From Halobellus sp. MBLA0158 (lineage in GTDB: Archaea > Halobacteriota > Halobacteria > Halobacteriales > Haloferacaceae), in the NCBI RefSeq assembly GCF_041477585.1, contig NZ_JBGNYA010000001.1, positions 1,798,001-1,862,000 on the forward strand: DNA of 64,000 bases, in the 5' to 3' direction. The position numbers and the translations under genes were made by a program. The notes beneath the pieces are model-generated. The model saw only the letters and a list, made by a program, of their open reading frames with translations, was not told the DNA's origin and did no database searches. Below are positions 15,598-63,857 of this stretch, piece after piece (positions within the stretch are counted from its first letter, which is position 1; the number at the start of each line of letters is the position of its first letter).

Positions 15598-16524
15598 TCA
15601 GTCGTCGGCGGAGGCGGGCGCGTCGCCCGGGAGGTCGACGACCGGCGCGTTCGAGCCGAGCTCGTCGAGGGCGACCTGCGCGGCGCGCTTGCCCGACAGC
15701 AGCATCGCCCCGAACGTCGGCCCCATCCGGGTGAGGCCGTGGGTCGTCGCCGTCGACAGGCCCGCAGTAATGAGCCCGTCGTGGATCTTCCCGGTCTTTT
15801 CGACGACCTTGTCCTCGCTGTCCTGGGCCCACATCGAGTCGTGACCCGGGGAGTCGTGGCCGGGCGCGCCGTACTCGCCTTCTTCGGTCGTGTCCATCCC
15901 GGTCGCGTGCGTCTCGGCGTGCTCGATCCCCGGTGCGTCGATGGCGCCGCGCTCCTGGAGCTTGGAGACGACGACGGCCTCGTGGCCCGTCGCGTCGACG
16001 ACGAGATCGGACTCAACGGCGATCGGGTCGACGCAGGTGAGTTCGCGGGGGAGCGCGTGGACGGGCGACCAGTTCATCACGATGCCCGCGACGCGGTGGC
16101 CGTCCCGGACGACGACGTCCGTGAACTCCGTCATGTTCTGGATCTTCGCGCCGGCGTCGCAGGCGGCCTTGATCAGCGCGGAGCAGGCGTGGGGGCCGTC
16201 CGCGAGGTGGAGGCCCGGAGTGTCGGACTCCTCGTGGGGGACGTCGAGCTCGTCGAGCACCTCGTCGGCGGGCTCGCGGACGGTGAGCTTGTTCATCAGG
16301 AAGCCACCGAGCCAGAAGCCGCCGCCGAGGTAGTTGTTCTTCTCGACGACCATCACGTCGATGCCGCGCTCGGCCAGTTCCTTCGCGGTGACCAGTCCCG
16401 AGGGGCCGCCGCCGACGACGATGACCTCCGTGTCGGTGAAGTCGAGGAACTCCTCGCTCCAGGACTCCGCGATGGCGTTCGTGACCTGTGCGTCCGTCGC
16501 GTCGCTGAATCCGCTGAACGACAT
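15598..16524 (-). CDS. Thi4-type thiazole synthase with active-site cysteine
   Basis: A 308-residue Rossmann protein that makes the ADP-thiazole precursor of thiamine from NAD and glycine. [19 protein letters not shown] (35-53) binds [17 protein letters not shown] follows, and [17 protein letters not shown] closes the C-terminal part. Cys164 in ELTCVDP aligns with the sulfur-donating cysteine of fungal and Haloferax Thi4, whereas methanogen homologues have His. A suicidal, single-turnover enzyme is therefore expected. The ATG at 16524 (MSFSGFSD) is preferred: a TATA-like element lies about 25 nt upstream. It is first in the thiamine operon. Confidence 0.92.
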
Positions 16525-16531
16525 ATAACCT

Positions 16532-16543
16532 AGTGATATCACT
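16532..16543 (-). promoter_or_regulatory. Perfect palindrome between TATA-like box and start of thi4
   Basis: AGTGATATCACT is a 12-bp perfect palindrome that begins 8 nt before the thi4 start. The TATA-like ctaattacta (minus strand, 16544-16553) adjoins it. A repressor bound here would block the leaderless transcript, so this is a good candidate operator of the thiamine operon. No TPP riboswitch could be recognised in the very short leader. Confidence 0.6.
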
Positions 16544-16688
16544 TAGTAATTAGTCGTTGCGGTCGACGGTCAGTAAGTCGGCGGGGTCGAGGAACGGGAC
16601 CCCAGAAGAAACCGAGCGGCGGTGCGGCCGCTCTACGGGGCAAAAATCGGAGAAACGAGAGCCGACGGGAGTCCGAGCGCGCCGAGGC

Positions 16689-61208: not shown

Positions 61209-61565
61209 ATGACAGAGACGGGAGACGGGGACGACGCGCCGGCCGCCGGTGCCGACATCGACAGCGAAGGCGACGCTGCCGACCCGGACGCCGACACCTT
61301 CGGCGTCGGGATCCACGTCACCGAAACGGAGTTCCAGTTCGTGGTCCACGTGCCCGCCGACATCGATTCTGGGTGGTCCGACCCTGACGCGTTCCAGCGG
61401 CTCGTCGAGCGGACCGTCTGGGAGCGATTGGACCGGGAGGCGACGCTCCGGCGGATCGCGAAGGAGGCCGAGACGGGCGAGACGGTCACGCTCGGGCGCG
61501 TCTCGCTCCGCCCTGACGGGACCGTGACCGACGTCGACTTCCGGGAGACCGCGGTTCCAGCGTGA
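61209..61565 (+). CDS. Conserved haloarchaeal protein, unknown
   Basis: A 118-residue acidic protein. The first 40 residues are a disordered Asp/Gly/Ala run; the rest (GVGIHVTETEFQFVVHVPADIDSGWSDPDAFQRLVERTVWERLD) looks like a small alpha/beta domain. No known motif. The ATG 61209 follows a TATA-like region; nine upstream in-frame codons are possible. It overlaps the next gene by 4 nt (GTGA). Confidence 0.7.
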   Translation: MTETGDGDDAPAAGADIDSEGDAADPDADTFGVGIHVTETEFQFVVHVPADIDSGWSDPDAFQRLVERTVWERLDREATLRRIAKEAETGETVTLGRVSLRPDGTVTDVDFRETAVPA

Positions 61566-61951
61566 CCGACGCGCTCGAAGATGTCGTCGACGCGGCGCTC
61601 CGACGGGCGCTCGTCGACGGGACCGACGCCCGCCGCTACTTCGCGCTCGCCGGTGCCCTCGACCGTGCGCGCGCCGGCGCGGAGGCGGATTCGCCGCCCG
61701 CGGAATCCGTGAGCGTCGATCGCGCGGGCGCGGCGCTCGTGAGCACCGTCGCCGTCCGGGCGCTCTCTGCCAGCCCGCGCGACGGCATCGACGCCGGTGC
61801 CTGGATTCCCGGCGACAGCGACCCGCACGAGGAGCTGGTCGTCGCGGGGGCGCGACTCGCCCGCCGTCGCTTCGACGTCGACGCGACGACCGTCGCGGCC
61901 GCGGCCGGCGTCGATCCCGTCAGGGTCGTTGACGCCGAGGCGTCGCGGTGA
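61562..61951 (+). CDS. Conserved haloarchaeal helical protein, unknown
   Basis: A 129-residue protein, GTG start. It is almost all helical, with DVVDAALRRALVDGTDARRYFALAGALDRARA at the start and a C-terminal HEELVVAGARLARRRFDVDATTVAAAAGVDPVRVVDAE that could be a helix-turn-helix. It is co-translated with the preceding gene. A DNA-binding role is only a guess. Confidence 0.65.
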   Translation: MTDALEDVVDAALRRALVDGTDARRYFALAGALDRARAGAEADSPPAESVSVDRAGAALVSTVAVRALSASPRDGIDAGAWIPGDSDPHEELVVAGARLARRRFDVDATTVAAAAGVDPVRVVDAEASR

Positions 61952-62015
61952 ACTGACTGCGAAAAACGAATCGCGCGGAGTGTCGGAGGGCCGTTCGATG
62001 GGGATTCAGGGAGTC

Positions 62016-62097
62016 ATAGTGATTACTCTCGCTGTTTACCGCCGAACGCCACCACCGGTGACGGCGTTGGGCGGGAAGAGACGAGAGTACTCACTAT
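62016..62097. repeat. 82-nt near-perfect hierarchical inverted repeat
   Basis: Outer arms 62016-62031 and 62082-62097 pair at 15 of 16 positions. Inner arms 62039-62050 and 62063-62074 pair at 11 of 12. Between outer and inner arms both sides carry exactly seven unpaired bases, and the centre holds the palindrome CACCGGTG. It lies between two convergent gene ends (61951 and 62112). It may be a bidirectional terminator, a cruciform or a small mobile remnant. Confidence 0.85.
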
Positions 62098-62111
62098 CAG
62101 TCGGGACTCGA

Positions 62112-63857
62112 TTAGTTCTGGCCGGGGGCGTTGCCTGAGTTCCCGGGCGCGCCGCCCGAGTTGCCGTTTCCGTTGCCCGAACTGCTGGACGACCCGCCGC
62201 CGGCTTCGGACTCGTCATCCTCGGCTTCCTCGTTCTCGGCCTCCTCGTCTTCGGTCTCTGCCTCTTCGGACTCGACTTCGTCGTCTCCGTCCTCGTCCTC
62301 ATCCGCGGCCTGGGGTCCGCCGTCGCGGCCGCGGTCGTCGGTCTCGTTTTCGGTGTCGTCGTCGGGACCGGCCTGACCGGAGCGACCCGGCGCGTCGCCG
62401 GACCGACCGGGAGCGTCTGCGGCGTTACCCGCGCCGCCGCTCCGCGCGCTCTCGGACTGTCCCGGTGCGTCGCCGGAGCGGCCGGGCGCGTCGGCAGCCT
62501 GCCCAGGGGCGTTGCCGGAGTTGCCCGGGGCATCGTCGGCCGCTTCGGGCGTTTCGGTCTCGTTTTCGGCCGTCTCGTTCTCGCTGTTGTCGTCCTGCCC
62601 GGGGGCGTTGCCTGAGTTCCCGGGCGCTTCGTCGGCGTTACCGGGGTTGTTGCCGGTGACGAAGTCCGAGATGATCTGTCCCGGCGGGCCGTCGAAGCCG
62701 GCCGACTGGAGCGCGCTCACGAACCCGGCGACGGCCTGGCCGAAGGGCCCCTGCTGGGCGAACTCGACGGTCAGCCGCTCCGTGGTCGTCGCGGTCTCGT
62801 TCTCCGCGCTGGCGGTCACGGTGATCGTGACATTCTCCTGCGGGAGCGGGAGGGCGACCTCGCCGTCGGCGTCGGTCGCGTACGTGCCCGTGCCCGAGTA
62901 GTCGCCGTCGGCCTCGATCTCGACGGTGGCGTTCTCGACCGCGTCGTCGCCGTGCGTGACGCGCACGAAGACGCCGTCGTCGTTCTGGACCGCCGAGACT
63001 TCGAGCTTCGCGTAGCCGGCGAGCTCGGACGTCGTCTCGGCGCTCGCACCTTCGACGCTCGCGGTCACCGTCACCTGCTGGGTATCTTCGGGCTGGTCCA
63101 GCGTGACGGTGCCGTTGGCGTCGGTGGCGTAGGTCCCCGCCTCGGAGTAGTTCTCCTCGCCGGTGACGTTCACGGTGGCGCCCTCGACGACCTCGCCGTA
63201 CTGGGTGACCGTCACGGTCGCCGTGCCGTCGTCGCTCTGTTCGACGGCGACGTCAAGGGACTCGGAGAGCGGCACCAACTCGACGCTCGCGCTCGCGTTC
63301 GCGCCGTTGGCGCTCGCTTCGACGGTCACCGAAACCGTCTCGTTCGGGTTCGGCAGGGCGACCTCGCCGTCGGCGTCGGTCTCGTAGCTCCCGTTCCCGT
63401 CGTAGGCCGTCTCGGAACTGACCGCGACGGTCGCGTTCTCGATCGCCTGGTCGTACTGCGTGACGGTTATCGTCGCCGTGCCGTCGTCGTTCTGCGCCGC
63501 GGAGACGGCGAGTGCGTCCTCGCGGGGGCGCAGTTCGACCTGCTGGCTCGCGTTGACGCCGTCGCTGGAGGCGTTGATCGTCACGGTGACTGTCTCGGCC
63601 GGCTCGGGGAGCACGACGGTGCCGTCGGCGGCTGTCGTGTACGTCCCGTTGCCCGCGTACGCGCTTTCCCCTGTGACTTCGACTGTCGCGTTCTCGACTG
63701 CGCTCTCGTTTGCGGTCACGGTGACGACTGCCTCGCCCGTCTCGGGGCGCTGGTCGACGTCGACCGCGAGTCCGGTCGCCGCGCTCGCGGCCGACGGGAC
63801 GACGGCCATCCCGAGGACCACGAACGCCGCGACGAGTGCGAACGTGCTGCGGTTCAT
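62112..63857 (-). CDS. Secreted four-repeat Ig-like protein with Pro-Gly-Asn-rich tail
   Basis: A 581-residue exported protein. Sec signal (STFALVAAFVVLGMAVVPSAASA) is followed by four tandem repeats of about 82 residues (about 30-111, 115-196, 200-280, 283-365), each with a core like ENATVEV..Y.G.GTY.TDADGEVALP, resembling carboxypeptidase-regulatory/big Ig-like folds. Many N-x-S/T sequons suggest N-glycosylation. From about 400 the chain is low-complexity: APGNSGNAPGQ occurs three times, with DAPGRSGDAPG variants and an acidic Glu run. No C-terminal anchor such as PGF-CTERM is present. Function: probably cell-surface or matrix. Confidence 0.85.
   Translation of the reverse strand: MNRSTFALVAAFVVLGMAVVPSAASAATGLAVDVDQRPETGEAVVTVTANESAVENATVEVTGESAYAGNGTYTTAADGTVVLPEPAETVTVTINASSDGVNASQQVELRPREDALAVSAAQNDDGTATITVTQYDQAIENATVAVSSETAYDGNGSYETDADGEVALPNPNETVSVTVEASANGANASASVELVPLSESLDVAVEQSDDGTATVTVTQYGEVVEGATVNVTGEENYSEAGTYATDANGTVTLDQPEDTQQVTVTASVEGASAETTSELAGYAKLEVSAVQNDDGVFVRVTHGDDAVENATVEIEADGDYSGTGTYATDADGEVALPLPQENVTITVTASAENETATTTERLTVEFAQQGPFGQAVAGFVSALQSAGFDGPPGQIISDFVTGNNPGNADEAPGNSGNAPGQDDNSENETAENETETPEAADDAPGNSGNAPGQAADAPGRSGDAPGQSESARSGGAGNAADAPGRSGDAPGRSGQAGPDDDTENETDDRGRDGGPQAADEDEDGDDEVESEEAETEDEEAENEEAEDDESEAGGGSSSSSGNGNGNSGGAPGNSGNAPGQN
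62122..62150. repeat. 29-bp direct repeat, copy 1 (in the tail of the secreted protein gene)
   Basis: This 29-bp segment is identical to 62599-62627, 477 bp away. Both encode APGNSGNAPGQ tail units, in the same frame. Recombination between them would delete 159 codons without a frameshift. Confidence 0.85.
62599..62627. repeat. 29-bp direct repeat, copy 2
   Basis: This is the partner of 62122-62150, identical over 29 bp. A third unit near 62508-62530 is similar but diverged. Confidence 0.85.

Follow-up and report, generated by a model that had tools for sequence, protein, structure and literature searches.

MITEs, including those of Haloquadratum walsbyi, are short, non-coding and mostly intergenic sequences with inverted ends and target duplications that are present in many copies (PMC3119063; review PMC10969869). 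The same archaeon carries SMR-A and SMR-B, which are about 80–110 bp in length with inverted ends, have no known mobiliser and are reported to lack target duplications and to insert in other mobile elements; HqIRS41 is 80 bp in length (PMC3119063). Two further groups, the PATEs and the REP/REPIN sequences, are palindromic, non-autonomous and found in many copies. PATEs are moved by HUH enzymes, are common in haloarchaea and are reported without inverted ends or target duplications (PMC3119063), and REPs are 20–40 bp in length with a GTAG or CGTC tag at one end (PMC3733652). In the PHIS superfamily (PIF/Harbinger-ISL2EU-Spy), which is related to bacterial IS5, the eukaryotic NuwaII group inserts at C-TNA-G with a 3-bp duplication, while the duplications of IS5 are ANT; both PHIS and IS5 elements encode DDE transposases (PMC4482050).

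Here, we describe a hairpin in a 64-kb window (the whole stretch of DNA analysed) of a Halobellus chromosome that is, with high probability, one copy of a non-autonomous MITE-like transposable element that has spread through the class Halobacteria. An earlier note on this DNA had described an 82-nt double inverted repeat between convergent genes, and both the architecture and the gene arrangement proved to be exact on reading and folding the sequence. The outer arms (ATAGTGATTACTCTCG and CGAGAGTACTCACTAT) comprise 16 bp and the inner arms 12 bp, each with one mismatch, and the centre contains the palindrome CACCGGTG. No other close inverted repeat in the window is as long as the 82-mer. Folding of both strands, which the note had proposed, gave energies of −48.4 kcal/mol (plus strand) and −44.4 kcal/mol (minus strand), with z scores of −7.9 and −7.6, respectively, and none of 200 shuffled sequences folded as well. 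The claimed extent needs a small revision, as the terminal A and T are part of the TCA repeat on either side and the mobile unit itself comprises 80 bp (Table 1). A covariance model built from 17 subfamily sequences, the E-values of which are rough, matches the window copy over model positions 1–80 (91 bits, E = 4.5e-19). This copy is intact and retains both duplications. The element was not matched by any Rfam covariance model or by any sequence in the phage and viral collections.

Table 1. Features of the hairpin element and its flanks in the 64-kb window
Feature	Position	Strand	Sequence or product	Basis or remark
Left target-site duplication	62014–62016		TCA	TSA direct repeat flanking 89/91 comparable copies
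Hairpin element, full-length copy	62017–62096		80 bp	Family alignment and covariance-model match
Outer arm, left	62017–62031	+	TAGTGATTACTCTCG	Paired with 62082–62096; fold, covariation
Internal loop, left	62032–62038	+	CTGTTTA, 7 nt	Unpaired, differs from right loop; fold, alignment
Inner arm, left	62039–62050	+	CCGCCGAACGCC	Paired with 62063–62074; sequence, fold
Centre	62051–62062	+	ACCACCGGTGAC	Either orientation seen among copies
Inner arm, right	62063–62074	+	GGCGTTGGGCGG	Sequence, fold
Internal loop, right	62075–62081	+	GAAGAGA, 7 nt	Fold, alignment
Outer arm, right	62082–62096	+	CGAGAGTACTCACTA	Fold, covariation
Right target-site duplication	62097–62099		TCA	TSA direct repeat flanking 89/91 comparable copies
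Flanking gene	61562–61951	+	129 aa, no Pfam family	Stop 65 nt from element
Flanking gene	62112–63857	−	581 aa, secreted repeat protein with DUF6795	Stop 15 nt from element

Several other features of the window and its surroundings were recorded. The product of the minus-strand flanking gene contains four Fn3-like repeats and a long acidic tail rich in PGNSGNAPGQ and is possibly a cell-surface protein. The window ends beside an rRNA operon, with the 5S and 23S rRNA genes located on the minus strand just past its end (L009, 4583–5106). An A-T-rich palindrome with 23-nt arms (AACGACATATAACCTAGTGATAT and ATATCACTTAGTAATTAGTCGTT) is located at 16517–16558 in GC-rich surroundings, and a 22-bp inverted repeat that is 86% complementary (TTCAAATCCCTCCTCCGGCTCT and AGAGCCGCGAGAGGGATTTGAA) and looks tRNA-derived or like an integration site is located at 744–811.

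The search of haloarchaeal genomes with the 82-mer, also suggested by the note, was productive. At least 40 copies with 78–94% identity, all chromosomal, were found by similarity in the source genome, to which a pattern search and fetched loci added a few more. DNA similarity places the element in eight of 17 Halobellus species, including H. limi, H. inordinatus (G003), H. rarus and H. clavatus; a ninth has a single match to the covariance model. Ten of the 22 copies in H. inordinatus equal the consensus outside the centre, which indicates that the expansion there is recent. A recent burst is likewise indicated by about 76 near-identical copies in a genome that is Halomicrobium-like by element similarity (G240). 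Overall, the covariance model matches 103 of 392 Halobacteria genomes, representing 34 of 86 genera and at least five families; related elements are carried by, among others, Halomicrobium, Haloarcula, Natrinema, Natronorubrum, Halococcus and Salinirubellus, and most of the class-wide relatives that were fetched share the same TSA duplication. Members of the family are 79–81 bp in length and nearly all stem, with TANKG ends and terminal inverted repeats formed by outer arms of 14–15 bp. Elements seen in other genera (G020/G021, L339, L340 and L354–L366; G056/G058, L344 and L346) share the length, the target and the plan of two stems but have a different inner stem. No earlier description of the element was found in the literature searched, which consisted mostly of papers available without subscription.

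The flanks were aligned for 123 copies drawn from Halobellus and from a few further genera. The flanking triplets are identical in 89 copies, compared with 44.8 expected from shuffled pairing (maximum of 62 in 2000 shuffles), and G or C is concordant in 89 of the 91 copies that read T(G/C)A at both ends. The element ends are bounded by a 3-bp target-site duplication. A reading of the TGA/TCA end triplets as another flipping segment was dropped in favour of this duplication. The triplet is almost always TGA or TCA and seldom another TNA, a bias that a simple TNA target does not predict; one copy from another genus (L452 in G240) is flanked by TTA on both sides, suggesting that the target is the source of the triplet. 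Copies located away from stop codons have a target that is symmetric on both sides (GWC-TSA-GWC). The flanking bases are C in 75 and G in 69 of 89 copies, with W and C further out, and CTSAG is present at 56 of 89 copies versus 102 of 1112 non-coding TSA sites. The symmetry of the target suggests that a DDE-type transposase makes a symmetric cut. In five instances in G240 (L411, L412, L422, L440 and L456) a copy directly adjoins the terminus of a second one (TCCGTA-TCA or TGA-TACGG beside the duplication), as if the duplicated TSA had served again as a target.

The symmetry also bears on the possibility that a single-strand transposase (HUH/Y1, of the IS200/IS605 or REP type) cuts beside CTGA and that the second TGA is part of the element. 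Such an enzyme would account for a triplet that is almost always TGA on one strand and for the hairpin structure, and it has a precedent in the haloarchaeal PATEs. Nevertheless, the matching preferences on the two flanks, the TTA/TTA copy and the lack of inverted ends and target duplications in the PATEs themselves make this mechanism improbable.

Sites without the element further support its mobility. For one copy (L037), in 11 further Halobellus species the same gene terminates at the equivalent codon and the element is missing; this codon is TGA in nine of them. Further orthologous element-free sites were found for L309, L310 and L316. An intact H. clavatus element (L313) matches a deletion remnant in the source genome (L056). 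Owing to the divergence of the species compared, the far flank is only partly alignable. Remnants that read TGA-GAGTAATCACTA-TGAG, or nearly so, recur right after gene ends in the source genome (L040, L049, L053, L057 and L039) with a nearly constant structure, and judging from their sequence may have arisen by loss of the stretch between the duplicated TGA and another TGA located in the arm. Inserted copies seem to degenerate, in some cases through internal deletion.

In 71 of the 123 copies (about 58%, by an ORF heuristic) the duplicated TGA is the stop codon of the neighbouring gene. Public annotation agrees on this position in H. limi (two genes), Halobellus sp. DFY28, Halomicrobium, Halomontanus, a Natrialbaceae isolate, Natrinema and Halococcus. 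At these sites the duplicated TGA leaves the protein intact. More than half of the copies lie exactly on a stop codon because GWC-TGA-G resembles a haloarchaeal gene end and the copies lie outside genes. In the source genome, stop-codon copies number 28 of 47 compared with 20.8 expected (p = 0.04), the expectation resting on a background of 464 kb in which 54% of the non-coding CTSAG sites are stop codons. The stop-codon position is therefore mostly a by-product of the preference for CTSAG and the loss of gene-breaking insertions; special targeting of stop codons was considered and set aside, as the same preference and the exclusion from genes largely explain it. Convergent gene pairs are over-represented, with 15 of 40 copies versus 15% of the intergenic length. 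The location of the window copy between convergent genes fits the target preference and a tolerance of insertions at 3' ends better than it fits a dedicated role in the intergenic region.

These positions, together with the very stable fold, could also be read as those of a 3'-end element that acts as a bidirectional terminator or an mRNA-stabilising hairpin and is selected between convergent genes and at stop codons, and a survey has reported that archaeal inverted repeats are enriched +50 to +80 bp past stop codons (PMC13155455). However, the position is mostly accounted for as described above, the copies occur in either orientation relative to the gene (43:28) and the same gene ends in other species carry no copy. 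Moreover, no T-tract was found on reading the element, and the own-genome copies do not covary. An origin as a terminator is thus not supported, and we regard selection as a 3'-end element as slightly more improbable still than single-strand transposition.

The evidence for constraint on the stems comes from comparison of subfamilies. Between subfamilies, 15 pairs are altered on both sides, with a covariation score of 0.303 versus 0.126 for shuffled alignments (reached in none of 500 shuffles), and both stems covary across the subfamilies of different species. Among the own-genome copies no covariation beyond that of shuffles was detected, and the copies therefore seem to decay after insertion. 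The selection that the earlier note had deduced from the matched loops consequently holds at the level of the family and not at the site itself. The simplest reading of the alignments is that the hairpin may matter for spreading, or that palindrome correction may keep the arms alike, with decay setting in once a copy is inserted. A family of structured non-coding RNAs spread by duplication would agree with this covariation between subfamilies and with the conserved boxes at the internal loops, but is not supported and is the least probable origin considered, given the target duplication, the element-free orthologous sites, the bursts of identical copies, the lack of an Rfam match and the lack of covariation among own-genome copies. 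Of the four options that the note had offered (a cruciform, a small MITE-like mobile element, a structured RNA or a protein site), it is the mobile element that the copies, the 3-bp duplication, the element-free sites and the class-wide relatives favour.

The centre of the element occurs in both orientations. Among 59 copies that were read in G240, 26 are identical outside the 11-nt centre, the orientation of which is divided 14:12, and both orientations are present in at least three variant backgrounds, indicating that inversion, or exchange between copies, has recurred. Both orientations are also found among the Halobellus copies. Template switching between short inverted repeats is known to homogenise arms and to invert spacers (PMC8604942); the flips could result from template switching or from a folded transposition intermediate, both of which fit the data. 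Only one of 52 informative G240 copies has its middle segment inverted with respect to the ends, and we make no claim of such a flip. No flips were found between two H. mukohataei plasmids, which are identical.

The element inserts at C-TSA-G, preferably within the symmetric 9-mer GWCTSAGWC, and the central TSA is duplicated in the process. We propose that a DDE transposase of the IS5/PHIS kind that recognizes the symmetric target moves the element in trans, presumably reading its conserved ends and the boxes next to the internal loops. A folded state (a hairpin, a cruciform or a polymerase strand switch in the palindrome) would recurrently invert the loop and keep the arms alike. A search for insertion sequences that share the element ends found none in G000, G003 or G020, or among the G240 matches listed; the ends lie in pairs separated by about 80 bp or, in G000, in remnants. 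The transposase families searched in carriers, PF01609 and PF13340, contained no matching DDE enzyme: none of the PF01609 transposases of three carriers has such ends or a TSA duplication, and PF13340 is absent from the genus Halobellus. A more specific scenario, which we offer only tentatively and consider rather unlikely in its entirety, is a class-wide haloarchaeal transposon lineage in which the folded hairpin itself serves as the substrate. In this scenario an unlinked orphan (possibly domesticated) DDE-like enzyme would insert the 80-bp foldback into a palindromic site similar to the stop-codon context, with a hairpin or cruciform intermediate that randomizes the loop orientation in each round.

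The element would explain the recurrent long hairpins at gene ends in many haloarchaeal genomes, which might be taken for terminators or small RNAs. It illustrates how a transposon can do almost no harm if its target overlaps with stop codons. Because flips are recorded in the orientation of the loop among copies that otherwise match, the element offers a natural record of palindrome chemistry in archaea. The mobiliser, once found, would test the link of these archaeal elements to PHIS-type targeting.

Compared with the known systems, the element differs from REP/REPIN sequences in its length of 80 bp and its TANKG ends, and from PATEs in having both inverted ends and a target duplication, while sharing with both a palindromic, non-autonomous and multicopy character. 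It resembles the SMRs of H. walsbyi in size, in its inverted ends and in lacking a known mobiliser, but is set apart from them as described by its duplicated TSA and its location at gene ends. Like MITEs, it is short, non-coding, multicopy and mostly intergenic, with terminal inverted repeats and a target-site duplication; unlike them, it has yielded no transposon with matching ends in the genomes and listings searched, it consists almost entirely of a single stem interrupted by two fixed internal loops, the loop flips and the length of 79–81 bp is fixed across the class. The PHIS superfamily, its NuwaII group and bacterial IS5 differ in encoding their transposases, whereas no partner transposase was found for the element among the families searched. 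With these systems it nevertheless shares the 3-bp duplication and the symmetric C-TNA-G frame, in which N is nearly always G or C.
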